A stretch of DNA of 40,501 nt, from contig JAUXDC010000004.1 of NCBI GenBank assembly GCA_030618605.1, forward strand, positions 1 to 40,501, read 5' to 3'. The notes beneath the pieces are model-generated. The model was not told where the DNA came from, did not search any database, and was given only the letters and a program-made list of their open reading frames with translations. Below are positions 4,587 through 40,501 of this stretch, piece by piece. The stretch is from Holophagae bacterium. GTDB taxonomy: Bacteria > Acidobacteriota > Thermoanaerobaculia > Thermoanaerobaculales > Sulfomarinibacteraceae. A program made the position numbers and the translations under genes. How positions within the stretch are numbered: the stretch's first letter is position 1; each line of letters begins with the position of its first letter.

Positions 4587-5366
4587 GTGAAAAAATTTCT
4601 CTTGGCGATTGATGTCGGGAATACCAATACAACGGTTGGACTCTTCCAGGATGAGGTTTTGAACACCGACTGGCGATTGACGACCCATGCCGAGCGAACG
4701 GCTGACGAGATCGGCATGTGGTTGCTGCAACTTCTGGAGTGGGAGGGCGTTCAGCCCGATGATCTGTTGGGTATCGCAGTTTCGTCGGTTGTGCCGCCGA
4801 TGGATCCCCGTTTAAGGGAGGGTGTGGTGCGCTACCTGGGTCGGCAGCCTTTTTTTGTCGAGCCCGGCATCCAATCGGATATGCCGCTGTTGGTTGATAC
4901 GCCGCAGGATCTGGGCGCCGACCGGCTGTGCGACGCCGTTGCCGGATACGAAATCTACGGGGGACCGTGCATCGTCCTTGATTTTGGGACGGCTCTGACC
5001 TGGGAAGTCGTTTCGGCAGATGGCGAGTACCTCGGTGGCGTGATCTCTCCGGGTCCTGGCGTGACGGCAGCGGCCCTGTCCTCGAAGACTGCCAAGTTGC
5101 CTCAGGTGGCGATGGCGCCGCCCGAGAGAGTCATCGGCAAGGGGACCGTCGACTCAATCCAATCCGGTCTCTTCTATGGCTATCTTGGTGCTGTGGAAGG
5201 TGTGACACGGCGGATTCTTGATGAACTCGGAGATGCCACCGTCATTGCGACCGGTGGTCTTGCCGGAGCCTTTGGCGCCCATTCCGACTTGATTGAACAT
5301 GTTGACGCCGATTTGACGCTCAAGGGTCTGAGGCTCTTATGGTTGAAGAATTTGACGGCTCCATGA
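4587..5366 (+). CDS. coaX: type III pantothenate kinase
   Basis: 259 residues, the normal length for CoaX. It catalyses ATP-dependent phosphorylation of pantothenate, the first step of coenzyme A synthesis. The N-terminal phosphate-binding motif is LLAIDVGNTNTTVGLF. The pantothenate/cation-binding region is DLGADRLCDAV, and the second phosphate motif is VLDFGTALTWEVV followed by GGVISPGPGVTAAAL. The start is GTG at 4587 preceded by GAGGAG, the best ribosome-binding site nearby. The stop overlaps the next gene as ATGA, indicating translational coupling with the CDP-alcohol phosphotransferase. A GATAAT at about 4560 may be the -10. Confidence 0.95.
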   Translation: MKKFLLAIDVGNTNTTVGLFQDEVLNTDWRLTTHAERTADEIGMWLLQLLEWEGVQPDDLLGIAVSSVVPPMDPRLREGVVRYLGRQPFFVEPGIQSDMPLLVDTPQDLGADRLCDAVAGYEIYGGPCIVLDFGTALTWEVVSADGEYLGGVISPGPGVTAAALSSKTAKLPQVAMAPPERVIGKGTVDSIQSGLFYGYLGAVEGVTRRILDELGDATVIATGGLAGAFGAHSDLIEHVDADLTLKGLRLLWLKNLTAP

Positions 5367-6007
5367 TCGATGACTCCAAGGCCAAAACCAAGATCCGGTT
5401 GGAGGTGGAAAAGCGCCTTCGACCCTTTACGCTGCCCAATTTCATCACCTTGACGCGAATGGCCATTGTGCCTTTTTTTGTCATTGCCGTTGCCGAGGGT
5501 GATTTTCGATTGGCCTTGTGGACCCTGGTCATCGCTGGGTTGACCGACGCTTTAGATGGATGGCTGGCCCGCCGCTTCGATATGGAGTCGATCGTCGGGG
5601 CTTATCTTGATCCGATCGCCGACAAGTTGTTACTGGTCACAGCCTATGTGACTTTGACCATTCCGATGGGCCAGGCAGTCGTCATCCCCTTGTGGCTGGC
5701 GATTCTCGCGCTCTTTCGTGATTTTTTCATTATGGTAGTTGTGCTGGTCCTGTTTTTGGTGGAAGACATTCGGAGTTTTCCACCGTCGGTTTTGGGGAAG
5801 GCGACGACCTTCATGCATATTGTGACGATTGGTGTCGTCTTGCTGGCCAATCTGACCACGATGCCCTCATGGATTCCTGACGCTTGCTTCTACCTGTCGT
5901 TCGTTCTGATTATTCTGTCCGGCTTCAACTACATCTATCGTTCCAGCCGGTTTATCGAAGTAGCCCGCCAAGAGAAAGCCGACGGTTCAAACGACGCATC
6001 GGCGTAG
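5363..6007 (+). CDS. pgsA: CDP-alcohol phosphatidyltransferase (probable phosphatidylglycerophosphate synthase)
   Basis: 214 residues with the complete CDP-alcohol phosphotransferase signature DG-x2-AR-x8-G-x3-D-x3-D, read here as LDGWLARRFDMESIVGAYLDPIADK. Several hydrophobic membrane spans follow (LWLAILALFRDFFIMVVVLVLFLV and later). The opening LPNFITLTRMAIVPFFV and the DPIADKLLLV segment favour a PgsA-type glycerol-phosphate transferase over CDP-choline enzymes, but PssA-like activity is not excluded. I chose the ATG at 5363 because it forms an ATGA overlap with coaX; the ORF-track start at 5339 adds eight residues inside coaX. Convergent with the next gene, 16 bases away. Confidence 0.85.
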   Translation: MIDDSKAKTKIRLEVEKRLRPFTLPNFITLTRMAIVPFFVIAVAEGDFRLALWTLVIAGLTDALDGWLARRFDMESIVGAYLDPIADKLLLVTAYVTLTIPMGQAVVIPLWLAILALFRDFFIMVVVLVLFLVEDIRSFPPSVLGKATTFMHIVTIGVVLLANLTTMPSWIPDACFYLSFVLIILSGFNYIYRSSRFIEVARQEKADGSNDASA

Positions 6008-6023
6008 CTTTGGCGGTGTGGCG

Positions 6024-6674
6024 TCACCATCTCCATCCGATTCCGAGACCGATTTCGACGGGATTGCCCTCGATGGCGACCCGATCGAGGTTTTCCTGGT
6101 TGTCGTTTTCGAGGTCCAGTTTGCCTGACAGGTCCATCATTTTAAGATCCAGACTGACGAAGGTGGTTTGGCTGAGACTGTAGTTGAGGCCACCCTCGAT
6201 GACCCAACCGAAGCTGGGATTGGCGACCAGTTTTGTGACGCCGTAGTCCTCGAGCACGGGTTCGACATCGTCAAAGAGATAGAAGGTCGTAGCGAGGCCG
6301 GCCCCAATATATGGCTGCACGCCTCCGCGGAGTTGGATCTCGTAACGCAACGTCAATGTGATGGGTGTGAACCAGATTTCGCCGAGAATCTCTCCGTGAT
6401 GGTCGCCGGAGATACCCTTGAAATCGAATGGCGCTGTGGTCAACGACGCACAGAGTGCCACTGCGTCCGAAAACATGTACTGCGTTTCGAGGACTGCCGT
6501 CACTGAGGACGAACTCGAGTCCATTCGAGTCCCGGAGTCAAAAATAGGATCGGTTGTGGCGTCAAACTTGAGAGAGGTCAGTCTGGTTGCAAAGCGCCAC
6601 TCACCCTGTTGGGCGGCTGCGGGCACAGCTCCGAGAACGATCAATATGGCTGTGAGAACAAACAATCTACGCAT
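6024..6674 (-). CDS. outer-membrane beta-barrel protein
   Basis: About 216 residues with a signal peptide (RRLFVLTAILIVLGAVPAAAQQ). The body has alternating amphipathic strands (TLRYEIQLRGGVQPYIGAGLATTFYLF; FGWVIEGGLNYSLS) and ends in ...GLGIGWRW, an aromatic C-terminal residue as expected for Bam-assembled barrels. It resembles small OmpW/OprF-like porins, though no specific family is recognised. Two adjacent ATG codons (6677 and 6674) follow AGGAGG; spacing favours 6674. A TAGAATC -10-like element lies at 6703-6708. No operon partner is evident. Confidence 0.7.
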   Translation of the reverse strand: MRRLFVLTAILIVLGAVPAAAQQGEWRFATRLTSLKFDATTDPIFDSGTRMDSSSSSVTAVLETQYMFSDAVALCASLTTAPFDFKGISGDHHGEILGEIWFTPITLTLRYEIQLRGGVQPYIGAGLATTFYLFDDVEPVLEDYGVTKLVANPSFGWVIEGGLNYSLSQTTFVSLDLKMMDLSGKLDLENDNQENLDRVAIEGNPVEIGLGIGWRW

Positions 6675-6724
6675 CATGCCTCCTAAGTCTCTTACCCTCG
6701 GGATTCTACACAAGAAGGCGTCAA

Positions 6725-6880
6725 GCTGTTAGCCGTTAGCGATGAGCTATTAGCAAGAGTGGCGTGGCCGTACCACTTGGGAGATGAACGGCATGAGGGA
6801 AACAGTCAAGCGGATGGACAAGAAAACACTATTGTCCGAGCTAACAGCTAACAGCTAAAAGCTGACGGCTATTAGCTTCC
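6725..6880. repeat. two heptamer arrays around a non-coding spacer
   Basis: GCTGTTA GCCGTTA GCGATGA GCTATTA (6725-6752) and AGCTAAC AGCTAAC AGCTAAA AGCTGAC GGCTATT (6839-6873) both have a 7-bp period. They are partly complementary (TTAGC versus GCTAA) and could pair across the spacer. The region lies downstream of murA and upstream of the barrel gene. I see no gene in it. Confidence 0.7.
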
Positions 6881-6909
6881 TGCCAGACCGGCTTGGCATC
6901 GAGGCCACT

Positions 6910-8217
6910 CTACGTCGTTCGTTCGACGTCGGCGCCAAGCGACCGCAGCCGTTGATGAAGGTCTTCGTATCCGCGCTCAACCTGTTTGATGTTGTGGATG
7001 ACGCTTTCGCCCTTGGCGCACAGAGCTGCAATTACCAAGGCCATCCCGGCGCGGATGTCCGGGCTGGCAAGGTCTTGACCTTGGAGGCGCGCCGGGCCGA
7101 CGACAACCGCGCGGTGGGGATCACACAGGACGATATTGGCGCCCATCGAGATCAGACGATCGACCCAGAATAGGCGGCTTTCGAACATCTTCTCGTGGAT
7201 GAGGATCGTGCCTCGTGCCTGCGTAGCCAAGACCACCGCTATCGACGTCAAATCGGGCGGGAAAGCCGGCCACGGTCCGTCATCGAGCTTCGGAATACCT
7301 CCGGTGAGATCTTCACAGATCTCCAAACTCTGCCCGGCAGGAACGATGATATCGTCCCCGTCATCTTCCCAGTGGATGCCCAGACGTCCGAAACCGATGC
7401 GTGTCATCCGATGGTGCCGGTGTGACATTGCATTCGTGATTTTCAAGTGCCCGCCGGTGACCGCAGCCAGGCCGATGAACGACCCGACTTCGATCGGATC
7501 GGGTCCGATGACCGCCGTCGCCCCTCCGAGATCCCGTTTTCCTTCAATCTCCAGTCTATTGGTGCCGATGCCTCGAATGGGGCATCCCAGACTCTCGACG
7601 AGGAAGCAGAGTTCCTGCACGTGTGGCTCTGAGGCCGCGTTGCGGATCGTCGTTTTCCCTTGAGCGAGGGCTGCCGCCATGACTGCATTTTCGGTGCCCA
7701 TGACCGACATTTCGTGCAGAAAAATATCTGCGCCGCTCAAGCCTTTGGGCGCCTTCATCACGTAACGATCCGGAAGGATCTCGATTTCGGCGCCCAATTC
7801 GATCAGTGCGTGCAGGTGGGTATCCAGGGGTCGCCGGCCGATCCGATCCCCCCCGGGGCGGGGAAGAATTGCCCTGCCCCACCGGCCCAGCAGGGGTCCC
7901 GCAAGAAGGAAGGAGGCCCGGATTTCGCCGGCCAGGTTGGACGTGAGGGTCTGAGTCGATACTGTGGAGGGATCGATCGACCAGTGACCGGGCCTTTGGG
8001 CCGTCACCGTCGCACCCAGTTCGCCAAGGAGTTTGAGCATTACCCCGACATCTCTGATATCAGGTACGTTTTCGAGGCTTACGGGTTGACCTCCCAGCAG
8101 GGTCGCTGCGAGCATGGGCAGGGCAGCGTTCTTGTTCCCGCCGGGCTTGAGTGTGCCGGAAATTGGGTTCCCGCCACGAACGATATAGGTGGCGCCGTCG
8201 TCAGGTGCTGCTTTCAT
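6910..8217 (-). CDS. murA: UDP-N-acetylglucosamine 1-carboxyvinyltransferase with Asp in place of the catalytic Cys
   Basis: 435 residues, slightly longer than the usual 420. It transfers enolpyruvate from PEP to UDP-GlcNAc, the first committed step of peptidoglycan synthesis. The start region is typical (GGNPISGTLKPGGNKNAALPMLAATLL), as is the C-terminal VERGYEDLHQRLRSLGADVER. In the active-site loop the usual PGGC-x-IG-x-RP-x-D reads PGGDRIGRRPLDTH, so the Cys115 equivalent is Asp (D124, codon 7846-7848). The same change is known in mycobacterial and chlamydial MurA, which stay active but resist fosfomycin. The gene has no visible Shine-Dalgarno. A TGCTAGAAT -10 lies six bases before the ATG, suggesting a leaderless transcript. 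Divergent from holC. Confidence 0.93.
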   Translation of the reverse strand: MKAAPDDGATYIVRGGNPISGTLKPGGNKNAALPMLAATLLGGQPVSLENVPDIRDVGVMLKLLGELGATVTAQRPGHWSIDPSTVSTQTLTSNLAGEIRASFLLAGPLLGRWGRAILPRPGGDRIGRRPLDTHLHALIELGAEIEILPDRYVMKAPKGLSGADIFLHEMSVMGTENAVMAAALAQGKTTIRNAASEPHVQELCFLVESLGCPIRGIGTNRLEIEGKRDLGGATAVIGPDPIEVGSFIGLAAVTGGHLKITNAMSHRHHRMTRIGFGRLGIHWEDDGDDIIVPAGQSLEICEDLTGGIPKLDDGPWPAFPPDLTSIAVVLATQARGTILIHEKMFESRLFWVDRLISMGANIVLCDPHRAVVVGPARLQGQDLASPDIRAGMALVIAALCAKGESVIHNIKQVERGYEDLHQRLRSLGADVERTT

Positions 8218-8221
8218 GCGG

Positions 8222-8258
8222 AGATTCTAGCAAGGCGGCTTGGGCGCCTGCTAGAATC
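8222..8258. promoter_or_regulatory. palindromic divergent promoter, both -10 elements in the arms
   Basis: GATTCTAGCAAGGCG ... CGCCTGCTAGAATC forms a long inverted repeat with a one-base bulge. Each arm reads TGCTAGAATC outward: one is an extended -10 for murA (TAGAAT complement 8224-8229), the other for holC (8252-8257). Both hexamers end exactly six bases before the respective ATG, and neither gene has a Shine-Dalgarno. Confidence 0.6.
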
Positions 8259-8263
8259 GGCCG

Positions 8264-8674
8264 ATGACGCGCGTGATGACCCATTCTCTGCCAAGTCCGA
8301 AACGAGCGGGTCTGGTGGTGCGTGAGGTCGAAAGGCTCTACGCCGAGGGTCGAAAGACCGTCATCTGGGTAGCTGACGACCGATTGAGAACCGTGCTCGA
8401 TGACTATCTTTGGACCTGCGAAGAGTTGGCTTTCATCCCTCATGTTGTGTGGACAGAGGAGATGGGTGAGGTGATGGACCCGGTGGTATTGGTCGCTCAG
8501 CAGGCCAATCCCAATGGCGCAGAAGCTCTTGTCGTCGCCGATGAACTACCGCCGGAAGATTGGGTCTTGACCTTTGACGAGGTCCACGACTTCATTCCAC
8601 CGGGCGACGAGGGCGTCGAGCGAGAGGCATGGTGGACCAGGTGGCGAGAGTCACACAAGGAGAAAAGTGAATGA
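8264..8674 (+). CDS. holC: DNA polymerase III chi subunit (HolC-like)
   Basis: 136 residues, near the usual length of chi. The pattern VVREVERLYAEGRKTVIWVADDRLRTVLDDYLWTCEELAFIPHVVW matches the HolC core, where a helix, the 'ADD..LDD.LWT' segment and 'F(I/L)PH' recur. The C-terminal half (VVLVAQQANPNGAEALVVADELPPE) fits the strand order of chi, and the protein ends in a Trp-rich tail. Chi links the clamp loader to SSB. Start ATG 8264 lacks a ribosome-binding site but follows a -10 by six bases. The stop overlaps the next gene as ATGA. The assignment rests on motif similarity. Confidence 0.72.
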   Translation: MTRVMTHSLPSPKRAGLVVREVERLYAEGRKTVIWVADDRLRTVLDDYLWTCEELAFIPHVVWTEEMGEVMDPVVLVAQQANPNGAEALVVADELPPEDWVLTFDEVHDFIPPGDEGVEREAWWTRWRESHKEKSE

Positions 8675-8844
8675 GCTTGTTGGGCAATATTCTCTGGTTG
8701 ATCTTTGGTGGTTTTCTGACCGGCCTTGGCTATATCATCGGCGGTATTGGGCTGTGCCTGACAATCGTCGGAATCCCGTTCGCGCTGCAACACATCAAGC
8801 TAATTCCGATGGCGTTGCTGCCTCTGGGGCGTTCGCTTCGGTAA
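8671..8844 (+). CDS. YccF-domain small membrane protein (57 aa)
   Basis: This frame is absent from the ORF track because it is short. It starts at an ATGA overlap with holC and reads MSLLGNILWLIFGGFLTGL through GRSLR. NILWLIFGGF, GLCLTIVGIPFALQ and KLIPMALLPLGR are the hallmark segments of the YccF/DUF307 inner-membrane domain, which normally occurs in two copies in E. coli YccF; here there is one. Two hydrophobic stretches are likely membrane spans. Function of the family is unknown. The overlap implies co-translation with holC, but a functional link is not evident. Confidence 0.75.
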   Translation: MSLLGNILWLIFGGFLTGLGYIIGGIGLCLTIVGIPFALQHIKLIPMALLPLGRSLR

Positions 8845-8878
8845 TTTCTCGATTCGAGAATTTCCAAAAAATACAGAA

Positions 8879-8947
8879 GTAGGGTGGGCCTTGGCCCACC
8901 AAGCGCATCGATATGCTCATCAAATGGTGGGCCAAGGCCCAACCTAC
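8879..8947. repeat. REP-like inverted repeat (GTAGGGTGGGCC...)
   Basis: Left arm GTAGGGTGGGCCTTGGCCCACC (8879-8900) and right arm GGTGGGCCAAGGCCCAACCTAC (8926-8947) are complementary with one mismatch. Each arm is itself an 8-bp inverted repeat. Related elements occur at 19353-19418 and 24799-24816. It lies between convergent genes and may act as a terminator. Confidence 0.8.
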
Positions 8948-8964
8948 GGGAGAGCCGACGGCTC

Positions 8965-9669
8965 CTACAGCCCCATGTGAATCGCCACGCCACAGGCGAG
9001 CACGGTTGCTCCGGCGAGAGCATGGCCCCAGCGTTCGAAACTCGCAGTCGGCAGCCGTTGGGCGCCGGCGTTGAGGGTCAGGACCATCAACAGCATCGTT
9101 CCGATCGTTGCAACTGCAAAAATGACGGCCACCAGGACGACGGCCCCGGCGGTGAGGGTTGCAGCCGGGTACATCAGTATCGGGATCAGAGGTTCGCAGG
9201 GCCCGAAAAGAAAGACCGTAAACAAGATCCACGGTGTGATCGAGGGCCTGGCATGCTCATGGGGATGCACGTGATCGCTGGCGTGGCTGTGAGTATGGTC
9301 GTGTTCGGTCCCGTCGGCGTGCAAATGGCTGTGCGTGTGGGGACGATTGCGCAGAGCCCGCCGGATGCCCCAGACGGTGTAGGCCAGGCCGAAGGCCACA
9401 AGCATCCAGGCTGCAACGTCGCCTCTGACTGCCTCGAAGCCCTCAAGGCGGCTGACGGCAACGCCCAAGGCGATGCCCAGAAAACCCAGCACGACCGAAC
9501 CCAGGACGTGCCCTATGCCGCAGACTCCCGTGATCGTGGCGGTCTTTGCCGTCGACCATCCCCGAGCCTGTGCCATGGCAACAAACGGCAAGTAGTGATC
9601 CGGTCCGAGCACCGTGTGCACGATGCCGACCGTCGCTGCCGTGGCGCAAAGAACGGTGAGTTCGTTCAT
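8965..9669 (-). CDS. NicO/UreH-like membrane transporter with His-rich loop
   Basis: 234 residues from the ATG at 9669 (MNELTVLCATAATVG); the ORF-track extension to 9762 runs through a hairpin and is not used. The N-terminal HTVLGPDHYLPF matches the H-x5-DH signature of nickel/cobalt (NicO/RcnA) and UreH-like transporters. A His/Asp-rich loop (HTHSHLHADGTEHDHTHSHASDHVHPHEH) lies mid-protein, and FLFGPCEPLIPILMYPA forms the second conserved half. About six membrane spans are evident. Metal (Ni/Co/Zn-like) transport is the likely role; substrate is unproven and no urease or hydrogenase genes are nearby. Sulfite-exporter TauE-like proteins are a more distant alternative. Confidence 0.7.
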   Translation of the reverse strand: MNELTVLCATAATVGIVHTVLGPDHYLPFVAMAQARGWSTAKTATITGVCGIGHVLGSVVLGFLGIALGVAVSRLEGFEAVRGDVAAWMLVAFGLAYTVWGIRRALRNRPHTHSHLHADGTEHDHTHSHASDHVHPHEHARPSITPWILFTVFLFGPCEPLIPILMYPAATLTAGAVVLVAVIFAVATIGTMLLMVLTLNAGAQRLPTASFERWGHALAGATVLACGVAIHMGL

Positions 9670-12121: not shown

Positions 12122-12310
12122 AGTCGGCGCCGGCCGGAAACGCCAACGCCGACGTACAAACCCGAGAGAGTCTTCTCCAACGGGGGTGCCCCTTGAGGAA
12201 AATGCACCGAGCGGGGGCGCGAAGCGGACCCGAAGGCCGGGGCCAGGAACTCCCGCGTTTGGATCACCTCATAAAGTAGGGAAGACCGGACCTGGCACTA
12301 ACGGTTGAAT

Positions 12311-28687: not shown

Positions 28688-30142
28688 ATGTGTGGCATTG
28701 TCGGTGTTATCAGGTCGGATGGGCGTCCGGTGATACAGGACCTTGGAAATGGCGCTCACTTCTTGCAGCATCGTGGTCCCGCCTACGCCGGGCTGTTCGT
28801 GTGGGATCCCGTTCGAAGGTCCTTCTCGCTGGAGAAAGGCGAGGGGCTGGCGGACGATATTTTCAAGCCGCTGGGTGAGATCGACGGTGATATCGGTCTG
28901 GCCCACACCCGCTACAAGACCTTCGGTTCAGGCGGCATCTTGAATGCGCAGCCGTTCTTCGACGCCTTTGGGTCAATTGCCCTGGCGCATAACGGCCACA
29001 TTACCAATGTTCCCCAGATCGCTGCGGAATTGGAGGCTCGGAACCAGGCTCTCACCGCGAAATGTGACGCTGAGCCTTTGCTGAGGGTTTTGGCTCTATG
29101 GTTCGAGCATTTCAGGTCTGCGGACCCGGAGGGTGATGAAGGGGAGATCATGTTCAAGGCCATCGCCGAGGTCCAGGCCCGGGTCACCGGCGCCTACTCG
29201 GTCGTTGTGGCCACGCCGGAGGCGCTCTACGCCTTTCGGGACCCGCACGGATTCCGGCCGATGGTGCTGGGCGTTCGGGAGACCGGAGTGGGATCGGCGG
29301 TCATGGTCACGTCGGAGACCCTGGCCCTCGAACAGACGGGCTATAGGGTTGTCGAAGAGGTGGCGCCAGGGAACGCCCTTCGCATCGGTCGGAACCTCGA
29401 AATCGACCAACGAGAGTTGGTGACCCGGGATCCCAGGCCTTGCGCCTTCGAGTTGATCTACTTCGCCGACGTCGAGAGCAAGATGATGGGGGACTCCATT
29501 CGTTCCCACCGTTGGCGCGCGGGAAGGGCCTTGGCGCTGTATCTCCTCGAAACAGCACCGGAGGTGGTGGCCCAGACTGATCTGGTCGTCCCGATTCCTC
29601 ACTCTCCGATTCCCGGCGCCGAAGCTTTTGCCCAGAAACTCGAAGCGGAATTTGATGCCTCCGCCATCGGTTATGCCACGCCTGTTTCCAAGTACCGGTA
29701 TGGCGGGCGGATCTTCATGGAAGAGACCCAGGCGGCGCGGGATGAGGCGGCGATGCTGGATTTTCGGGTTGATGCCAAATCAGTCGAGGGCAAGAACCTC
29801 TTCATCATTGACGACAGTGTCGTTCGAGGGACCAATGCAAAACGCGTGGTCAATGCGCTGCGGACGGCCGGGGCCAAATCGATCGCTTTCGGCACCCTGT
29901 GGCCGATGGTGATCGACTCGTGTTTCCAGGGGATCAACACGCCTACCCAAAGCGAACTGATCGGCGCCCGGTTCAATTCGGACATTGAAGAAGTTCGGCG
30001 CGAGTTGGGCGTTGACGAACTCTACTACCTGCCGGTCGACTGGTTCCAGGACAAGGTTCTCAAGGGAAAACCGGCGTGCATGGCCTGTGCGACAGGTCAG
30101 CGTGCGGTCAAGTTCGAATTCTCAGGTTCTGTGCTGCCCTGA
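28688..30142 (+). CDS. purF: amidophosphoribosyltransferase
   Basis: 484 residues from the ATG at 28688 (MCGIVGVI); the track start is 19 codons early. It uses glutamine and PRPP to make phosphoribosylamine, the first purine step. The N-terminal Cys after Met is the glutaminase nucleophile. The PRPP loop is NLFIIDDSVVRGTNAKRVV. Cys residues at PRPCAFELIYFA, VIDSCFQG and CMACATGQRA suggest the B. subtilis-type iron-sulfur form. Ribosome-binding site GGGGGG. Two small hairpins follow (30157-30196). Confidence 0.95.
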   Translation: MCGIVGVIRSDGRPVIQDLGNGAHFLQHRGPAYAGLFVWDPVRRSFSLEKGEGLADDIFKPLGEIDGDIGLAHTRYKTFGSGGILNAQPFFDAFGSIALAHNGHITNVPQIAAELEARNQALTAKCDAEPLLRVLALWFEHFRSADPEGDEGEIMFKAIAEVQARVTGAYSVVVATPEALYAFRDPHGFRPMVLGVRETGVGSAVMVTSETLALEQTGYRVVEEVAPGNALRIGRNLEIDQRELVTRDPRPCAFELIYFADVESKMMGDSIRSHRWRAGRALALYLLETAPEVVAQTDLVVPIPHSPIPGAEAFAQKLEAEFDASAIGYATPVSKYRYGGRIFMEETQAARDEAAMLDFRVDAKSVEGKNLFIIDDSVVRGTNAKRVVNALRTAGAKSIAFGTLWPMVIDSCFQGINTPTQSELIGARFNSDIEEVRRELGVDELYYLPVDWFQDKVLKGKPACMACATGQRAVKFEFSGSVLP

Positions 30143-30156
30143 GGCGCTGTGGCTGG

Positions 30157-30196
30157 GCAAAACGTCGGACGTTTTGCATCATTCGCTTCGCGAATG
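30157..30196. terminator. tandem hairpins after purF
   Basis: GCAAAACGT-CGG-ACGTTTTGC (30157-30177) then CATTCGC-TTC-GCGAATG (30180-30196). No T-run follows the second, so Rho-independent termination is uncertain. Confidence 0.45.
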
Positions 30197-30325
30197 GGTT
30201 TTGTCGGTAAGTGCGTCTGTTCTCAAAAAAAATCAATCCGCGCGAAGCGCTCTAACTCGGAATGAGGGCGGGATTGGTCTTGAGTGACCCCGTTCCGACG
30301 TGGCTGTTGCAGACCAATCCAGGCC

Positions 30326-31312
30326 TTATTCCGAGTCCCGCACCGCCCTCGCAGCGTCCAGCACTTTCTCATGGAAGTTTCCGTTGGTGGCGATGATGCC
30401 GCGTTGGTTGCCGAGGAAGCGTCCCGATGTCAGGTCAAGGGGCTTGCCGTCGAGGTCGGTCACTCGCCCTCCGGCCTCTTCGATCACCAGCGCCCCGGCG
30501 GCATGGTCCCAGACCTTTTCGCGGTAGCCCTTGGCGCTGGGGAGACGGAGGTAGATTGATGCCTCGCCGCGACCGACGATGGCGTATTTGCACTGGGAGT
30601 CAATGCGGTAGGGTTCGGCAGTCACACCAAGGGCCCCGGCGATCGCGCCGTGTACGGAGTGCGCCGCATGGGCGGACTCGACGGATTCGCACATCACCGC
30701 CAGAGACGGGTCTGTGATCCGGTCGGTGTGAATTTCCTTTTCGTCAATGCCGTCGACTCGACGGACGGCGGTCCCTTGACCGCGGACGGCGATGAAGAGA
30801 CAGCCGATGCCGGCCTCCGGGTTGCCGGGTTCGACTTCGAGGTTGGGACAGCCCAGTACGCCGACGACCACCTGTCCGTGATCGACCAACGCCAGGGCGA
30901 TCGCATAATGCTGGCCGCGCAAGAAACCCTTGGTGCCGTCGACGGGATCCAAAACCCAGTAGCGGTCGTCTCCGCCTCCGTGGTAATCGCCCCGGTCCAG
31001 GGATGTGGCCAGGGACTGGGCGTCAAAATCAGGGACTGCCTGGCGGGAGAGATTGAGGACTTTGGCCGCCATTTCCGGGGAATCCTCGAACGCCCCGGCG
31101 TCCTCTTCGGCCAAGAGGTGATCCGAAGGGAAGGTGTCAGTCAATCGTCGGCTGACCACCGCCTGTATCGCCAGGTCGGCCATTGTCACCGGAGATCGGT
31201 CGCCTTTGGTCAGCGAGTCGGCATTGGCGACGATTTCTTCTTGGACCTGCCGGGCCAAACGGGAAGCCTGGGCCGCGACATTGAGGGCAAATTCTCGTTC
31301 CGCTTCGTACAT
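30326..31312 (-). CDS. 3'(2'),5'-bisphosphate nucleotidase (CysQ/HAL2-like)
   Basis: 328 residues from the ATG at 31312 (MYEAEREFALN), preceded by GGAGGACATCG. It is an inositol-monophosphatase-family, metal-dependent phosphatase: LAEEDAG (metal ligand Glu), WVLDPVDGTKGFLRG (DPxDGT) and KVWDHAAGALVIEEAGGRVTD are the three signature blocks. The GFLRG extension favours HAL2/CysQ-type bisphosphate nucleotidases, which hydrolyse PAP in sulfur assimilation, over inositol monophosphatases. A TGCTACACT -10 is at about 31336 on the minus strand. Tail-to-tail with purF. Confidence 0.88.
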   Translation of the reverse strand: MYEAEREFALNVAAQASRLARQVQEEIVANADSLTKGDRSPVTMADLAIQAVVSRRLTDTFPSDHLLAEEDAGAFEDSPEMAAKVLNLSRQAVPDFDAQSLATSLDRGDYHGGGDDRYWVLDPVDGTKGFLRGQHYAIALALVDHGQVVVGVLGCPNLEVEPGNPEAGIGCLFIAVRGQGTAVRRVDGIDEKEIHTDRITDPSLAVMCESVESAHAAHSVHGAIAGALGVTAEPYRIDSQCKYAIVGRGEASIYLRLPSAKGYREKVWDHAAGALVIEEAGGRVTDLDGKPLDLTSGRFLGNQRGIIATNGNFHEKVLDAARAVRDSE

Positions 31313-31441
31313 CGATGTCCTCCGGGCGGGGGAGTGTAGCAGGGGCGGTTTCATGGTCTGAAAAAGCACCGGATAGCAGCCAGAAACTGGGCAGCCGATC
31401 CGGCGCAGGAACTCATCCGCTCGGTCTTTGTCACGACGTCG

Positions 31442-33982
31442 TCACTGGTTCCAGGCAGCCGTGTCACCCTCTTCGAAACCGTCCATGAAAATCAGGTTGC
31501 CTGCGGTCATACAAGGGGCGCTTGTGCCGGCATCGTTGATGAAGAAGTCGTCAATTTTCCAGTCACCGGTAGAGTCATATGTGTCGCAGACCAAACGCCA
31601 TCGAGTGACGGCCGTCTTCCCAGCGTAGATTGAAAGATCAACGGTGACCTCTCCAAACGTTGCCTGGGTGCCGGACCACGCATCTCGTCCTCCTATCGGA
31701 CTATCGTAGTCGATGGAGATCGTATTGGTGTAACCGCCGGCCGTAATCTGTGGGCCGAGGTCCACCCAGGTGTCGCCGCCGTCAAGGGAGATTTCGATCA
31801 CTCCCCCGTCATAGCCTTCTTCAAGATCAAATTTATGCCAGAAGGACACTGTGGAAATCGCGTCGATTACCATCGGCCGGGTGAAGATCCACTTGTCGGT
31901 CAGGGTTGAGACGTCCGCCGAAACAAATGCGTTTCCGGTACCGGTTGTGTGATCGTCTCCTACAACAACATCCCAATCATCGATGCCGTCGGAAGCGGCG
32001 TGTCCCCACCCTGCCTCCTCGGCATCGCCCATGGTCACGTATGGCTCCAGATCGTCACTCCAGTCTGCCACGGTTACCGGGCCGGTGGGTCGGCCGCCAA
32101 CTTCGACGGTATTAGGCTCTTCTGAACCGGTGACCGAATCAACAGCCCGGACGACGTAGAGATAATGGTGGCCGAATTCCAGCATGTCGATGTCGGCATA
32201 CGGACTCCCTCCGACATTTTCGGCTACCAGCGTCACTGCATCAGGTGTGAAACCGGGAATCTCCGAGCGATAGACGTTGTAGACGACACCGTTTCCACAG
32301 TTGCTGGCGCCCGGATCCCAGGCCAGTTCCAGGGTGCATGTGGGGTCTGTGGAATTGGTCACCGATTGAACTCCTGCGAAGGTCGGGTCCAGAGTGCAAT
32401 CACCGGTGGCCACTGCGCTCGCGCAGGGCGAGGGGTCACTCCGACATCCTTCTGTCGGCTCAACGGCGATGACAACATACGAATAGGTGCTTCCCCCGGA
32501 GACAGCGGAGTCGATGAACGAGGTTGCGGTCAGATCTTCAGCGATCAGTTCGTTGCCGGACTGCGGACAGGATCCGAAGGCTCGGTACACGTTATACGTG
32601 ATGCCCGTCCCGGCGACCGCGTCCCAGGCGAGGTCGATAGCATTCGGTGTGGTGACATCGGCCGTCAGCACTGTAGGTCCGTCAAAGGGAGCACAGAGTG
32701 CACCACCCGGCATCACCCCCTGTGCCTCGAGATCAGCAATGATTTCTTGAATGGGGACGCCGCGATTGGGATCGTCATCGGTGGGATCCCCTGTGGTGCA
32801 GTTGTTCAGACCGGTGCAGTGGTGCAGGGCAATGACCCTGTTATCACTGTAGCCCAAGACTGGCGAACCTGACGACCCGGGCTGGATGTCTGCCCAGTAG
32901 CCGACATCGTCGTAACTGGTCACGCCGGTGCAAGCCGTCTCGGTCACGCTGACGATATGGGCAAACCCGTCAACATTGTCCGGTGGTGCATCGTAGGACG
33001 ATTCCATCGCCAGCCTCTTGCCCCACCCGGCTGGGTGTTGAACGATATAGATCCGTTCATCCAATACGGGCCCTTGTTGACGGAGCTTCATGTATCCATA
33101 CGTGGACGGAAGGTCTGTACTGTTCGCTGTGGAGGTGTCGGGAATGACCAGGGCGTAGTCCAGATCTGTACTGTCGGTGACGAAGGTCCCGCCGCTGCCC
33201 TCGATCGTTCCCGGGCAGGCCAGGTAGGAACCACAGCCCGTCGCGCAATCGGCGCCCTCGGCCATGAACTCGATGTCGATTCTGTCCATTTCGCTCTGCG
33301 AAGTGATGCAATACTCGTTGGTCATCAGATGACCTTCGTTCCCGATCAGCCAACCGGTGCAATGGGCAAAACCGTCTTTCAATAGACGGGCCACGGCGCG
33401 GCCGGTCTCGTAGGCATCCGGGTCCGATGACTCATAGCACTTGGCTTCGTCGGTGTCGTCGGTCGTACATATCCACCTGCCCCAACTGGCGGGTGGCGCC
33501 AAATTCATCTTCTCGCCAAGCCCCTGCGCCCAGAAGTCTTCGATTTCTGATTCGCTGTAACCGCGGCCGAACTTGTCGATTCGATATCCGAAGGCGCTGG
33601 TTCCGCCGGAGGCGTAGAGTTCAATCACCGCAGAATCGCCTTTGATGTGGGTGGCAAAGAACCCTTCCTCACTGATGCCGAGATCGTGGCGTCCGTATCC
33701 GCTATAGGTCCATCGCTGGAGCCGGTCCTCTGAACGAACGACTACAAAATCTCCATCGGCAAGTTCCATGCGTTCAAAATGAACCGCAATATACGTCGCC
33801 TCCGGGAAATTGATCTCGTCCACCCAAACCAGACGCGGATCGCCGCTGGGCGAGGCCGGATAGGGATGGGGTGTTTCCGACCCATCCCAGACGTGCTCGC
33901 CGATGGTCACCGGCCCTCTTTGATTCGCAACCAGGGGCAGCGAAATCAATACTAGAACAACAGCAATCCCCAAATGCCTCAT
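31442..33982 (-). CDS. secreted trypsin-like protein, catalytic His replaced (pseudoprotease), with DGFEEG tag
   Basis: 846 residues. Signal peptide MRHLGIAVVLVLISLPLVANQ. The S1-like core (about 150-420) contains CTGWLIGNEGHLMTNEYCI, DLDYALVIPD (Asp) and QPGSSGSPVLG (Ser). The position expected to be the catalytic His before Cys is Tyr (Y224, codon TAT at 33311-33313), so proteolysis is doubtful. Two FN3-like modules (about 430-620; IDLAWDAVAGTGITYNVYR and LELAWDPGASNCGNGVVYNVYR) and a MAM-like jelly-roll follow. It ends CMTAGNLIFMDGFEEGDTAAWNQ. AGGAG precedes the ATG. Divergent from an intact paralogous protease. Confidence 0.85.
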   Translation of the reverse strand: MRHLGIAVVLVLISLPLVANQRGPVTIGEHVWDGSETPHPYPASPSGDPRLVWVDEINFPEATYIAVHFERMELADGDFVVVRSEDRLQRWTYSGYGRHDLGISEEGFFATHIKGDSAVIELYASGGTSAFGYRIDKFGRGYSESEIEDFWAQGLGEKMNLAPPASWGRWICTTDDTDEAKCYESSDPDAYETGRAVARLLKDGFAHCTGWLIGNEGHLMTNEYCITSQSEMDRIDIEFMAEGADCATGCGSYLACPGTIEGSGGTFVTDSTDLDYALVIPDTSTANSTDLPSTYGYMKLRQQGPVLDERIYIVQHPAGWGKRLAMESSYDAPPDNVDGFAHIVSVTETACTGVTSYDDVGYWADIQPGSSGSPVLGYSDNRVIALHHCTGLNNCTTGDPTDDDPNRGVPIQEIIADLEAQGVMPGGALCAPFDGPTVLTADVTTPNAIDLAWDAVAGTGITYNVYRAFGSCPQSGNELIAEDLTATSFIDSAVSGGSTYSYVVIAVEPTEGCRSDPSPCASAVATGDCTLDPTFAGVQSVTNSTDPTCTLELAWDPGASNCGNGVVYNVYRSEIPGFTPDAVTLVAENVGGSPYADIDMLEFGHHYLYVVRAVDSVTGSEEPNTVEVGGRPTGPVTVADWSDDLEPYVTMGDAEEAGWGHAASDGIDDWDVVVGDDHTTGTGNAFVSADVSTLTDKWIFTRPMVIDAISTVSFWHKFDLEEGYDGGVIEISLDGGDTWVDLGPQITAGGYTNTISIDYDSPIGGRDAWSGTQATFGEVTVDLSIYAGKTAVTRWRLVCDTYDSTGDWKIDDFFINDAGTSAPCMTAGNLIFMDGFEEGDTAAWNQ

Positions 33983-34209
33983 TTTTTGACTCCTTCAGAG
34001 ATGTTCGCAAGTTCATTAGAAACTTACAGTCTTTCAGCGGGCTTGACAAGTCCTCGGTGACAGGCAGGCGAAACAGCGGGCCTTCGGTGTCCATCGCGTC
34101 GGCACTGGTGTCCTTCGTTGGGGAGTGAAGCACTGGAACGGTGTACCTTGCGCTCATGCTCAAGTATGGTATTGCCTTACACCGCTTGTGCGGGACCTTT
34201 GGAGGCATC

Positions 34210-36336
34210 ATGAAAAAACTCGTAATATTGACCTTGGTAATTGTTTCTTTTGTTATCGGTGTGACTGTTGAGGCCGGTAAGCCCTTACCTTCGCCCGAAA
34301 GGAACGTTGTTGGATACGGTCAGGATTTGGTGATCGTTCCGGACCTCGGCGACGGCGTGCGCCTGGGGGGCGAATTGGTCTGGAGCGAAATCGTACAGAT
34401 CAAGGAGGCCACCTTCCTCAAGCCCCACATCGTAGATCTCAATCTTCGCGAGGGTGATTCCCTGGTCTTGCGGTCCCAAAGTGGCCGGGTGGTAGAGGTT
34501 CTGACGGGACGGGGACCCAATGACCTGGGCTCTTTTTGGGCGCTGTCGGCCTTTGGTGAGATTCTGCACCTTGAATTGCATCTGAGTCACGGCTACGCCA
34601 AGGCGCCCTTCACGATCGACCAGGTGATCGTTGGTGACGTCGACCTCTTCGGGACGGGAGATGAGCAGGGCGAAAGTATTTGTGCTCCGGCCGATTTCGA
34701 GGATGTTGTTTGCTACGACGGCGACCCGGGCAAATGGGCGACGGTGATGGCCTCGGTAGGTGTGATGTCGGTCGGCAGCAACCCGACGACGGGGGTGTGG
34801 TGCTCGGGCTCCAACGTTTCCCCCAACAACTACGTGATGACCAACTGGCATTGTGTGCCGGATGCCCAGCCGTGCACCAACGCCGAGTTCGTTTTCAAGT
34901 ACTACAACACCACCTGCGGCGGTTCGACGACGACACCGGATTGGGAGAGCTTCCATTGTGACCAGACGGTGGCCGAGTCGCCCTTCGTCGGCTGTGACGC
35001 CACGCTCTCCTCTCTCGATTTCACGTTGAGTTCGGTGATCGGCGACCCGGCGTCAACCTACGGCTGGGTGACGCCGGACTCCAACCCCCTGACCGACGGC
35101 GAGGCGATCTACATCGTGCAGCATCCGGATGGCAGACCTCATGAAATCACCCACGGTAGTGGCGCCGATGTCGACGTCGATGGGACCGTCCTGCGCTACT
35201 ACGACACCCTGGACACCGAGGGCGGTTCGTCGGGTTCCCCAATCTATCGTGAGTCGGACAACAAGATGATCGGCATCCATCACTGTGGCGGATGCGATAC
35301 GCCAGGTGTGGGGAACCGAGGCATGTTGATGTCGGACATCTATCCATTGATTCAAGAATTTCTGTGTTCGGCCGAGGTTGAGATCGTCCCCGCATCGTGG
35401 GAAGGGCTGGCCGAGGTTGACGGTAACGGCAATACGGTTATCGAGCCCGGTGAGACCTGGCAGTTCATCCCGAGAGTGACCAATACCGCGTGTGCAACCG
35501 AGGCGACCGCTGTGGCCGCCGACCTCCAGGCAGGGACGGCTTCCGCCGATATTTCGCTGGTTGGGGCGAACGCCGATTTTGGAACGGTGGCTGCGGGCAC
35601 GACGGCGCCTTCTTTTTCTCCGGTCCAATTCACCGTCGAACTCTCCGCGGCCTGTGGAGAGACGGTAGCGATCGATATGGTCAACCTGGTCGCGACGGGT
35701 GTCGGCCCATTTCCTGGCACGAACGACTATCTGACCAGGACCCTTGGTGAGCTGGTCTACACGACGGTCTTCCTCGAAGACTTCTCCGCCGGAATTCCCG
35801 CTGACTGGACGATCGTCGACGGCGGTTCGAGCACGGGAGGCGTTCACACCTGGACCGATACCAATCCCGGCAATCGTTCGCTGCCACTGACCGAGCCCTT
35901 TGCCATCATGGACTCTGACGAGGCCGGTAGCGGGGAAAGCCAGGACGAGGAATTGATCTCACCGGTGATTGATGTGACGGGTTTCGACAACGTCACCCTT
36001 CAGTTCAGTCATGACTTCAACTGGTATTCCGGCAGCACGGACGAACAGGCGGATGTTGATGTGCGTTCGACCGCCACCGGGGGCGCGTGGGTAACAGTCG
36101 CCAACTACTCGGGTGCGGACACTTCGGGGACTGTCACCGTGGATTTAACAGCTTATGCTGCAGTTGACCTGCAGCTCCGATTTCACTACTACGATGCATC
36201 ATTTGACTACTGGTGGGCCGTCGACGACATCTATCTACTGGGAGACAACGGTTTTGTCTGTGAACCCTACGGCGGACTTTTCTCGGATGGATTCGAGTCC
36301 GGAGATACGACGCTCTGGTATTGGGCCAGCCCTTGA
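34210..36336 (+). CDS. secreted trypsin-like serine protease with DGFESG tag
   Basis: 708 residues from the ATG at 34210, with GGAGG at the proper distance; the track start adds 23 spurious residues. Signal peptide KKLVILTLVIVSFVIGVTVEAG. The S1-type triad is complete: VMTNWHCVPD (H214), LDFTLSSVIG (Asp), EGGSSGSPIYRES (Ser). Cys residues near the active site probably form disulfides. A beta-sandwich module (about 385-520) and a jelly-roll/immune-inhibitor-like module (FLEDFSAGIPADWTIVDGG) follow. The C-terminus is CEPYGGLFSDGFESGDTTLWYWASP. Export and surface retention or release are expected. Confidence 0.88.
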   Translation: MKKLVILTLVIVSFVIGVTVEAGKPLPSPERNVVGYGQDLVIVPDLGDGVRLGGELVWSEIVQIKEATFLKPHIVDLNLREGDSLVLRSQSGRVVEVLTGRGPNDLGSFWALSAFGEILHLELHLSHGYAKAPFTIDQVIVGDVDLFGTGDEQGESICAPADFEDVVCYDGDPGKWATVMASVGVMSVGSNPTTGVWCSGSNVSPNNYVMTNWHCVPDAQPCTNAEFVFKYYNTTCGGSTTTPDWESFHCDQTVAESPFVGCDATLSSLDFTLSSVIGDPASTYGWVTPDSNPLTDGEAIYIVQHPDGRPHEITHGSGADVDVDGTVLRYYDTLDTEGGSSGSPIYRESDNKMIGIHHCGGCDTPGVGNRGMLMSDIYPLIQEFLCSAEVEIVPASWEGLAEVDGNGNTVIEPGETWQFIPRVTNTACATEATAVAADLQAGTASADISLVGANADFGTVAAGTTAPSFSPVQFTVELSAACGETVAIDMVNLVATGVGPFPGTNDYLTRTLGELVYTTVFLEDFSAGIPADWTIVDGGSSTGGVHTWTDTNPGNRSLPLTEPFAIMDSDEAGSGESQDEELISPVIDVTGFDNVTLQFSHDFNWYSGSTDEQADVDVRSTATGGAWVTVANYSGADTSGTVTVDLTAYAAVDLQLRFHYYDASFDYWWAVDDIYLLGDNGFVCEPYGGLFSDGFESGDTTLWYWASP

Positions 36337-36351
36337 TACACTGAGATCCGA

Positions 36352-36357
36352 TAGAAT
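36352..36357 (+). promoter_or_regulatory. possible -10 (TAGAAT) of the lipoprotein gene
   Basis: GATAGAATTC lies about 35 bases before the start, matching the TAGAAT hexamer seen upstream of other genes in the window. No good -35. Confidence 0.35.
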
Positions 36358-36391
36358 TCATTGCCCTACTGGGGAGTATGAGGAGACGATG

Positions 36392-36607
36392 ATGAAATTC
36401 ACGCGTTTGATGATGGCAGTGGCTTTGGTGGCGTTTCTCGGGGGCTGCGGCGGTACACCTCAGGAGGATGCTGCCGCCCCTGATACCGCTCAGGTTGCGG
36501 AACCAACCCCGGTATTCCAAGATGACTTCGAAAGCGGTGAGACCGAAGGTTGGACCGAGGGCGAAGAAGCTCAGGCCGACGAATCGGAAGAAGAGCCAAC
36601 AGAATAG
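36392..36607 (+). CDS. small lipoprotein carrying a DFESGETEGW motif
   Basis: 71 residues. It starts at ATG 36392 (MKFTRLMMAVALVAFLGGCGG) after AGGAG, with a second ATG at 36389. The lipobox FLGGC predicts lipid anchoring. The acidic mature part contains PVFQDDFESGETEGWTEGEEAQADESEEEPTE, where VFQDDFESGETEGW closely resembles the C-terminal tag (FxDGFESGDTxxW) of the neighbouring protease. No other family recognised. The ORF track shows it inside a longer frame (36155-36607). Confidence 0.75.
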   Translation: MKFTRLMMAVALVAFLGGCGGTPQEDAAAPDTAQVAEPTPVFQDDFESGETEGWTEGEEAQADESEEEPTE

Positions 36608-37964: not shown

Positions 37965-40501
37965 TCATGGCGTAGCCCACCCCCACCGCGCGGTGTCACC
38001 ACTCTCAAATCCGTCGATGAACAGGAGGTCCGATTCGGCGCAACCCTGGATGACCACATCGTCGATGTACCACCCTTCGTGGCCTACAGAGGAATCCGTG
38101 CCGAGACGGAGGCGGAAACGAATGGTCTGGCCGGCATAGGCGTCCAGGTCAATGACCGATTCCAGCCAGTCCTGCGGGTCGCCGCACCAGGCATCCAGTC
38201 CTCCGAGGGGATTGCTGCCGTCATAGATCGGGCCATCGTAGGGGTCCGTGACGAGCTGAGCCACGAGTTGCGTCCAACTACCACCGGAGTCCGTCGATAT
38301 TTCGAGAATGCCGCCGTCGTAACACCCTCCGGATCGGTCCTCGATTTCCTGCCAGTTCCAGAATTGCAGGGTCAACGGGAGGGTTTCCGTGGGAAGGATG
38401 ATGTCTTCTGATTCCAACCACTGATCGGTGACTGTGTCGACATCGTCGGCGAAGAACGCCCAGGATCCACTGTGGACCCGGGCGCCGGAGAGCTGCCACG
38501 TATCGCCCGTGCCACCGTGAGTCCAGCCTGAGCCGGTCCCTGCCTCGAAGTCATCATCGAAATAGAGGACCGGGCTTGTGCCGAGGCCGCAATCTCCGGG
38601 CAGTGCGACCGTCACGAAGTCAAACGTGCCGGACCACGATCCGGTGCCGCAGCCGTTGTCGGCCTGGACCCGCCAGAAATACTGGGTATTGGACTGGAAA
38701 TCGGCGTCGGGCGTGAAGGTCGTTCCACCAATGCCGGTCTCATCCAGCGCAAGGGTGGCAAACGCCGCATCGGTTGCCGCCTGGAGGTGGTATGTCCCGG
38801 CCTGGTCGGCGTCCAACCACTCGAAGATCGGCCTGAGTGGTTGGTTGAGCGCGCCGTTGTTGGGGGTGACCAACGTCGGGATCGAAGGTGTGGCGTCAAA
38901 CAGATTGAGAGATACGGTGTCCGTATGAAAGCTGCTGGCCGACGTCCCCGAGACTTCGATGATGGAGGCCCCGGCGGAAGCGCTACCGGTCTGGCCGATC
39001 GTCATCACGGTCGAATTTCCGGGTGTCACCGGATTGGTGGTGAAATTGACTGTCGTTCCGGTAGGTTCCCCGGAGGCGGTCAGGGTGACGGGTTCCGAGA
39101 ATCCGAGAATCGATCCCACATCGACGCTGAAAACTCCGTCGGCCGGAGCACACACGTCGAGCGATGCCGGCGTGACGTTCAGGGTGAAATCCGGCTCTTC
39201 AGAGCAGTTGAAGCACACGATCGCAAAGTCTTGATCGGTGATGTCACCGGAGTAGGGCACGCCGTCGCCGGCGATGTTGGTGGCTCGAACCGTGATCGTC
39301 GCCTGGCCCCCAGGCGCCGCGACAAAGACGTTTTCCAGGTTATTGAGGACATCCGCGGCGCCTCCAGTGGTCGACCAGCCTGCGGAAAAATCATTGCCGA
39401 GATAGGTCGTTCCATCAGTCTCCACTTCCAGATCCAAATTGTTGACGAGAGCGGGATTTGCGCCGACGGCGCCAGGTGCATCCGACCAGGCAAGGCTGAT
39501 TCTGAGGGGTTGCCCCGGGTCGTTGATGCCGACTGTCATCGTCCATACTTCGCCGGTGCCGTCGAAGGTGGTCTCCTGGTCCTTGTAGACCATCAGAACC
39601 CCAGGTTGGATAGCATCGGTGACGTTGATCCTTCCCCAGCCTTCGTTGATGTTGGGGATATCCGGCGTGCCCATGTCGACTGCGCTGTTGACCAGCAGGG
39701 CCTTGGCCATGGCTGGGCTGGGGTTGCCGCCGCCGTGGAATCCGCGCCACCACTGGGTGATCAACACGATTGAACCCGAGGTATGGGGTGCGGCCATCGA
39801 GGTGCCGCTGCACCAAGAGTATATGCCGCTGGTGCCGGCGATTGCTGACGTGCATTGTGAAGCGCCACCTTGCCTGAGGGCCGAGGCAATGTCCGAGCCT
39901 GGAACGGCAATTGTCGGCACCCACCGTCCATCGACAGCCGGGCCGCGGCTCGAAAAGCTCGAAATGCTGTCGATATTGTCCCCGCCTCGGTAATTCAGGG
40001 TCGAGGCGGTGACAATGAGATTCTTGGCTTCTTTGGGCGAGGTCAGGCCGGAAGTTCCCGAATTGCCGGCCGAGAAGACCTCGATGAAGGGTTCCGCGGT
40101 ATCGGCCGTGTCGAAGTTTCCGTCCCGCACCATCAGGTCATGGGTGCGTTCCGAGGCCTGGTATCCGTGGAGGGTTCCTTCACTGGTGGTCCACGAGTTG
40201 TTGCCGCCGATTGCGCTGCCGAGAACGGCTTGTTTGCTGTGTTCTTGCCAGCCACCGGTTGGTGGCCAACCGGAACCGCACAGGGAGTTCATTGCGAAGA
40301 TGCTGTAGGAAGGCGCCATTCCCAAGCCGTACAGGAATCCGTCTGCATCGGCGTATCCGGCCGAGGCGTCTCCGCCCATGACCCCCGTTACATGAGTCCC
40401 ATGGCCGCCACTCGAGCAGTCATTTCCGGGTGGAGACGAGGGTGCGCCTGGGAAACTGTAGCCACCGACGATGTGGGCGTTGAGATCCGGGTGGGCGTAG
40501 T
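37965..40501 (-). CDS. secreted subtilase (S8 peptidase) with DGFESG tag, 5' end beyond the right edge
   Basis: The track ORF starts at an internal ATG (40379), but the frame stays open to the right edge: YAHPDLNAHIVGGYSF and CSSGGHGTHVTGVMGGD (catalytic His) lie upstream. FSAGNSG (oxyanion Asn) and CSGTSMAAPHTSGS (Ser) complete the core; the catalytic Asp is outside the window. After it come an immunoglobulin-like module, an FN3-like FEWLDADQAGTYHLQA module, and a jelly-roll domain (YFDDDFEAGTGSGWTHGG). The protein ends CAESDLLFIDGFESGDTARWGWATP. At least 845 residues. Extracellular proteolysis is expected. Confidence 0.92.
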   Translation of the reverse strand, partial: YAHPDLNAHIVGGYSFPGAPSSPPGNDCSSGGHGTHVTGVMGGDASAGYADADGFLYGLGMAPSYSIFAMNSLCGSGWPPTGGWQEHSKQAVLGSAIGGNNSWTTSEGTLHGYQASERTHDLMVRDGNFDTADTAEPFIEVFSAGNSGTSGLTSPKEAKNLIVTASTLNYRGGDNIDSISSFSSRGPAVDGRWVPTIAVPGSDIASALRQGGASQCTSAIAGTSGIYSWCSGTSMAAPHTSGSIVLITQWWRGFHGGGNPSPAMAKALLVNSAVDMGTPDIPNINEGWGRINVTDAIQPGVLMVYKDQETTFDGTGEVWTMTVGINDPGQPLRISLAWSDAPGAVGANPALVNNLDLEVETDGTTYLGNDFSAGWSTTGGAADVLNNLENVFVAAPGGQATITVRATNIAGDGVPYSGDITDQDFAIVCFNCSEEPDFTLNVTPASLDVCAPADGVFSVDVGSILGFSEPVTLTASGEPTGTTVNFTTNPVTPGNSTVMTIGQTGSASAGASIIEVSGTSASSFHTDTVSLNLFDATPSIPTLVTPNNGALNQPLRPIFEWLDADQAGTYHLQAATDAAFATLALDETGIGGTTFTPDADFQSNTQYFWRVQADNGCGTGSWSGTFDFVTVALPGDCGLGTSPVLYFDDDFEAGTGSGWTHGGTGDTWQLSGARVHSGSWAFFADDVDTVTDQWLESEDIILPTETLPLTLQFWNWQEIEDRSGGCYDGGILEISTDSGGSWTQLVAQLVTDPYDGPIYDGSNPLGGLDAWCGDPQDWLESVIDLDAYAGQTIRFRLRLGTDSSVGHEGWYIDDVVIQGCAESDLLFIDGFESGDTARWGWATP

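Follow-up and report, generated by a model that had tools for sequence, protein, structure and literature searches.

A trypsin-fold protein of a Holophagae bacterium with tyrosine at the catalytic histidine position and a putative loss of catalysis

The stretch of DNA analysed here (hereafter, the window) comprises 40,501 nucleotides of contig JAUXDC010000004.1, from a metagenome assembly of a Holophagae bacterium (3.83 Mb in 396 contigs, 89.7% complete). It contains, on the reverse strand (31442-33982), a gene for a secreted, Lys-C-like S1 protein of 846 amino acids in which the catalytic histidine, position 57 of chymotrypsin, is replaced by a tyrosine, Tyr224. The corresponding TAT codon occupies positions 33311-33313 of the reverse strand, and all 92 homologues with a residue in this column contain histidine there. 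We consider it somewhat probable that this is a genuine, lineage-specific loss of catalysis in a protein that retained its fold and that probably persists as a secreted binder. We infer both the loss and the binding role, the latter probable by analogy; the protein does not form a co-evolved pair with the protease encoded next to it.

The open reading frame is uninterrupted throughout its 846 codons, and its ATG, at 33982, is preceded by the Shine-Dalgarno-like sequence GAAGGAG. The deduced product contains, in this order, a signal peptide (judged by eye from a signal-peptide-like N-terminus), an N-terminal domain, a trypsin fold, an fn3-like region, a MAM/choice-of-anchor-J-like domain and a C-terminal tag; the fn3-like region was also called by eye, with a weak match to Pfam fn3 in homologue L036 only. 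The score against Pfam Trypsin_2 (43.9 bits) is above the gathering cut-off of 27.6, and an AlphaFold model of residues 20-430 (pLDDT 92.5, pTM 0.92) matched Lys-C in Foldseek (E 9e-11, probability 1.00), indicating a chymotrypsin-like double beta-barrel. The top structural matches in the PDB were Lys-C from Lysobacter (4nsv, 4nsy) and Achromobacter protease I (1arb), followed by staphylococcal Spl/Glu-C and by Deg proteases, and the first matches of the sequence profile were a glutamyl endopeptidase (1p3c) and, again, 1arb. Pfam and fold thus both place the protein in the Trypsin_2/Lys-C-like fold family of peptidase S1, and the gene most likely encodes an exported trypsin-fold product that comes from an active, Lys-C/Glu-C-like subfamily of S1 endopeptidases. 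The source genome encodes four Trypsin_2 proteins above the cut-off, and a query for the kind considered here retrieved only two members among them.

The codons around Tyr224 (ACC AAC GAG TAT TGC) specify TNEYC, and the neighbouring protease contains TNWHC. An earlier note on this DNA had deduced the change of the catalytic histidine from this comparison, together with the retention of the other two residues of the triad, and both deductions are confirmed by the alignment. Asp275 (GAC, 33158-33160, reverse strand; motif LDYALV) and the nucleophile Ser371 (TCA, 32870-32872, reverse strand; motif GSSGSP) are each present in 94 of 94 sequences, that of the window included. As to the comparison itself, the difference of Trp and Glu only separates subfamilies, because active orthologues of the Tyr224 protein contain TNEHC or TNNHC. 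In S1 peptidases the histidine acts as general base and acid. Near neutral pH tyrosine (pKa about 10) is unable to take over this role, and a strong loss of activity is therefore to be expected. The protein lacks the complete His-Asp-Ser triad of active S1 peptidases and, having lost at least one triad residue and kept the fold, can reasonably be called a putative S1 pseudoprotease.

Two further residues of the active site are also unusual. Ile366 (ATC, 32885-32887, reverse strand), which by count from the serine is chymotrypsin position 190 in the wall of the S1 pocket, is threonine in 92 of 94 sequences; Pro368 (CCC, 32879-32881, reverse strand), position 192 by the same count, is glycine in 84 of 94, and is proline in three other homologues, all of them with histidine in the triad. 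Isoleucine at 190 and proline at 192 would alter the S1 pocket and its entrance. Asp365, at position 189, is invariant across the family, which suggests, without proving it, that active members prefer basic residues at P1.

Homologues were collected from relatives in the same class and from GTDB genomes, yielding 97 distinct sequences; those from GTDB belong to Acidobacteriota, Myxococcota and Bacteroidota, where the subfamily of the Tyr224 protein is widespread, with a few from Pseudomonadota and one from Planctomycetota. Of the two patterns used in the GTDB scan, one admitted either His or Tyr at this position and the other was placed away from it, so that the search was open to relatives with tyrosine. 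Nevertheless, only the protein from the window contains tyrosine, and no group of orthologues sharing the loss was found among the 92 homologues. The change is thus private to one genome and does not define a conserved pseudoenzyme; histidine in the orthologues is an outcome that the earlier note had itself named as refuting its reading, and it does so in part. The term pseudoprotease is nevertheless reasonable, the loss being real in the consensus sequence and the protein otherwise looking maintained. The class and GTDB genomes searched contained no same-species or close copy, the three genomes of the genus that were searched (G001, G002 and G003) yielded no orthologue, and no relative was found in viral contigs. 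The nearest full-length homologue, in L036 (Acidobacteria bacterium Dive96_bin10.49), is 64% identical, and in the phylogenetic tree the Tyr224 protein groups beside L036 and L039. L036 itself contains two tandem protease copies (4830-9068) that are 64% and 62% identical to the Tyr224 protein; the second is shorter and contains GSSGSA instead of GSSGSP, and both end in a DGFESG tag.

We examined departures from conservation by leave-one-out over 40 sequences, in which 90 columns, 19 from the active site and 71 others, were at least 90% conserved. The Tyr224 protein departs at three of them (H224Y, T366I and G368P), the last two being active-site departures in addition to the one previously described. 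All three are among the 19 active-site columns and none among the other 71 (hypergeometric p=0.008, a post hoc value that includes the ascertained histidine; p of about 0.04 without it). Homologues with any active-site departure show from 1 to 14 departures each, mostly scattered, and in the 40-sequence set no protein other than this one departs at an active-site column that is 100% conserved.

These results are consistent with the explanation that we favour, a loss of catalysis with retention of the fold. The general-base histidine would have changed to tyrosine in a single lineage, along with Thr190 to isoleucine and Gly192 to proline, with the fold, the cysteines, the aspartate and the serine being kept; the product would most likely not cleave peptides at a useful rate and, as a secreted binder, would hold a peptide or a partner in the former substrate cleft. 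The intact frame, the signal-like N-terminus, the tag, the confident fold and the restriction of the departures to the active site all argue for it, and there are precedents in UmbA (PMC11062931) and MamO (PMC4794232). Conversely, the tyrosine occurs in one genome alone, the clustering test was post hoc, Pro368 is shared with histidine-bearing homologues, and the end branch of the protein, at 0.57 substitutions per column, exceeds the path to its nearest sister (0.28), although within the range of the family.

It is possible, if rather doubtful, that the gene is instead a loss-of-function allele of very recent origin, of an enzyme that became dispensable in this lineage, and that it is turning into a pseudogene in which stops or frameshifts have not yet had time to appear. 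The tyrosine is, indeed, private to one genome, the codons of the histidine and threonine changes both fit C-to-T transitions, and the absence of orthologues from G001, G002 and G003 makes the family patchy and thus dispensable. Yet a decaying gene would depart anywhere, and this one does so at the active site and nowhere else among the 90 conserved columns, with its 846-amino acid frame and its tag intact, which speaks against decay.

A consensus error, or a minority strain allele, at position 33313, with histidine encoded by the true majority base, is unlikely. It would agree with the invariant histidine of the homologues, with the single base change needed and with the fragmentation and completeness of the assembly, but a lone miscall would not bring T366I and G368P with it, and CCC is two bases away from any glycine codon. 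We also counted private substitutions in neighbouring genes common to this contig, G003 and G001. Synonymous and nonsynonymous changes numbered 32 and 3 in PurF for this contig (32 and 5 for G003), and 20 and 4 in IMPase (15 and 4 for G003). Being about equal to those of G003, and with no excess of private nonsynonymous changes (3+4 against 5+4), these counts indicate that the consensus of the contig is not unusually bad, and they agree with the favoured loss of catalysis. Decay of the Tyr224 gene, likewise, found no support in the tests of private substitutions.

The divergently arranged neighbour (34204-36336, forward strand) encodes an S1 protease of 710 amino acids with an intact His-Asp-Ser triad that belongs to a different subfamily. 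Its most likely start is the ATG at 34204, with GGAGG just upstream, rather than the GTG listed mechanically at 34141; its N-terminus is also signal-peptide-like, by eye, and it scores 56.2 bits against Trypsin_2, above the cut-off. The earlier note had described both genes as a pair with shared layout, signal peptide and tag, one copy being dead. The signal-like N-termini and the tag are indeed common to both, but the layout is so only broadly, each protein comprising a signal peptide, an N-terminal domain, the protease, a MAM/choice-of-anchor-J-like domain and the tag, and the catalytic regions are approximately 30% identical, as compared with up to 64% between the Tyr224 protein and its orthologues, and up to 86% for the neighbour (86% in G001, 59-60% in G005 and G013, and then 53% and 48%). 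These identities rule out a recent duplication, and on their basis the two proteins are old paralogues from two old S1 subfamilies. In the tree, the neighbour is on a very long branch and its exact position was not used. Moreover, in the genomes that contain both subfamilies (G005, G013 and G037) they are on different contigs, which also fails to sustain the idea of a duplicate with a dead copy.

Comparison with G001 shows how local this arrangement is. Positions 28854-31346 and 34192-36579 of the window align, respectively, to 1-2486 and 2839-5228 of L021, from G001, and the segment of 2845 bp that holds the Tyr224 gene (31347-34191) has no counterpart there, with 352 bp between the same flanks. 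A tblastn search detected no pseudoprotease remnant at the G001 locus. An assembly chimera is unlikely, as synteny and order relative to G001 are preserved on either side. G003 is closer by sequence (around 90-91% nucleotide identity) and contains IMPase and PurF, with different neighbours upstream. By these comparisons, the genus varies in the stretch upstream of IMPase, and the two genes are paired only locally, through either a gain here or a loss in relatives. We also observed that the region upstream of IMPase differs in all three comparable genomes of the genus (G000, G001 and G003; L140 1-6038 against window 31370-34200), being a rearrangement-prone spot. Separately, about 55 bp of the window (12188-12242) have two copies, 83-85% identical, at unrelated positions of the G001 contig (L021 10270-10328 and 11405-11459), possibly as a small dispersed repeat.

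The presence in G001 of the same flanks and of the active gene, without the Tyr224 gene, fits the favoured loss of catalysis and bears on the suggestion of the earlier note that the dead protein might act as an inhibitor. A dedicated action of the Tyr224 protein on the adjacent protease, as inhibitor, decoy or regulator, would be compatible with the divergent location of the genes, their similar domain order and their same kind of tag, as well as with the activation of the active paralogue MamE by MamO (PMC4794232). Nonetheless, the membership of separate subfamilies, their location on different contigs elsewhere and the conservation in G001 of the active gene (86% identity) on its own make such a dedicated role very unlikely. 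Slimmer still is the chance that the protein remains a protease, through another general base (His 207, 218, 387 or 388) or a histidine from the substrate: in its favour, the protein retains the serine, the aspartate and the GSSGSP loop, His387 is aligned with a histidine lying close to the active-site strand of Achromobacter protease I, and substrate-assisted catalysis rescued subtilisin H64A (PMC12018205), but His218, 387 and 388 are common to active members, His207 occurs in 11 of them, Ile190 and Pro192 also change the S1 region, and no new, compensating histidine is private to this protein, all of which makes a substitute base unlikely.

The C-terminal tags noticed previously in both proteins are borne out by pattern matching, as DGFEEGDTAAWNQ in the Tyr224 protein (31445-31483, reverse strand) and DGFESGDTTLWYWASP in the active protease (36286-36333, forward strand). 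The same pattern is found at 37968-38015 (reverse strand) in a subtilase (S8) gene (37965-40501, reverse strand) that apparently runs off the contig end, with its Ser region present and the N-terminal Asp/His part outside the window. Exact matches to the pattern, [I/L]F.DGFE.GDxxxW (DGFESGDxxxW), number 32 in the source genome and, in one relative, as many as 115; a reversed control pattern retrieved a single match over all genomes. Of 35 matches examined, which include a few counted twice, 34 lie 11-18 residues before a stop. Within the class, 59 of 148 genomes contain the tag, and genera mostly either have it throughout or lack it. No NCBIfam or Pfam match covers it, and no mention of DGFESG was found in the open-licence papers searched. 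The tag looks like an uncharacterised signal for export or surface anchoring; comparing genera with and without it could reveal the machinery for sorting, and this class-wide tag may merit more attention than the Tyr224 protein. A more elaborate proposal, which we hold only tentatively and regard as doubtful, is that coordinated H57Y, T190I and G192P changes converted a secreted Lys-C-type protease into a peptide-binding surface protein, displayed or exported by means of this tag.

Compared with the Lys-C endopeptidases of family S1 (1arb, 4nsv/4nsy), the Tyr224 protein shares the double beta-barrel, a GSSGSP-type serine motif, secretion, and the aspartate and serine. It differs in the replacements of the histidine, Thr190 and Gly192, at around 16-20% sequence identity, and it also contains an extra N-terminal domain, a MAM-like domain and the DGFESG tag. 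We found no paper on Trp169/His210 of Achromobacter protease I among the open-licence papers searched.

Among bacterial pseudoproteases, UmbA, from the umbrella particles of Streptomyces, contains trypsin domains without the triad that bind the N-terminus of a partner in the cleft (PMC11062931). Like the Tyr224 protein it is a secreted trypsin fold with an incomplete triad, and it models a function of binding and not cleaving; in UmbA, however, the loss spans the paralogues of a multi-protein particle, whereas the substitutions described here form a single set private to one genome, and we recognised no genes for partners. MamO, from magnetotactic bacteria, is likewise a trypsin-like pseudoprotease that kept its fold; it belongs to the HtrA family and conserves the histidine, with threonine as nucleophile, and its loss evolved repeatedly and was retained in clades, with metal binding and activation of MamE being demonstrated (PMC4794232). 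The same replacement of the catalytic histidine by tyrosine, in a bacterial protease fold and with the substrate pocket kept, occurs in the YS variants of pseudo-orthocaspases (PMC6426788), which, unlike the Tyr224 protein, have a caspase fold, have also lost the nucleophile and comprise hundreds of sequences in conserved lineages (PMC6426788). Because bacterial trypsin-fold pseudoproteases and His-to-Tyr losses are already known, the Tyr224 protein is at most a singleton addition to them and, alone, changes little. Provided that the loss is genuine and has been maintained, the protein would nonetheless represent a natural case in which very few changes made a probable binder out of an S1 protease of the Lys-C type, and it could be compared directly with active-looking relatives that are 60-64% identical.
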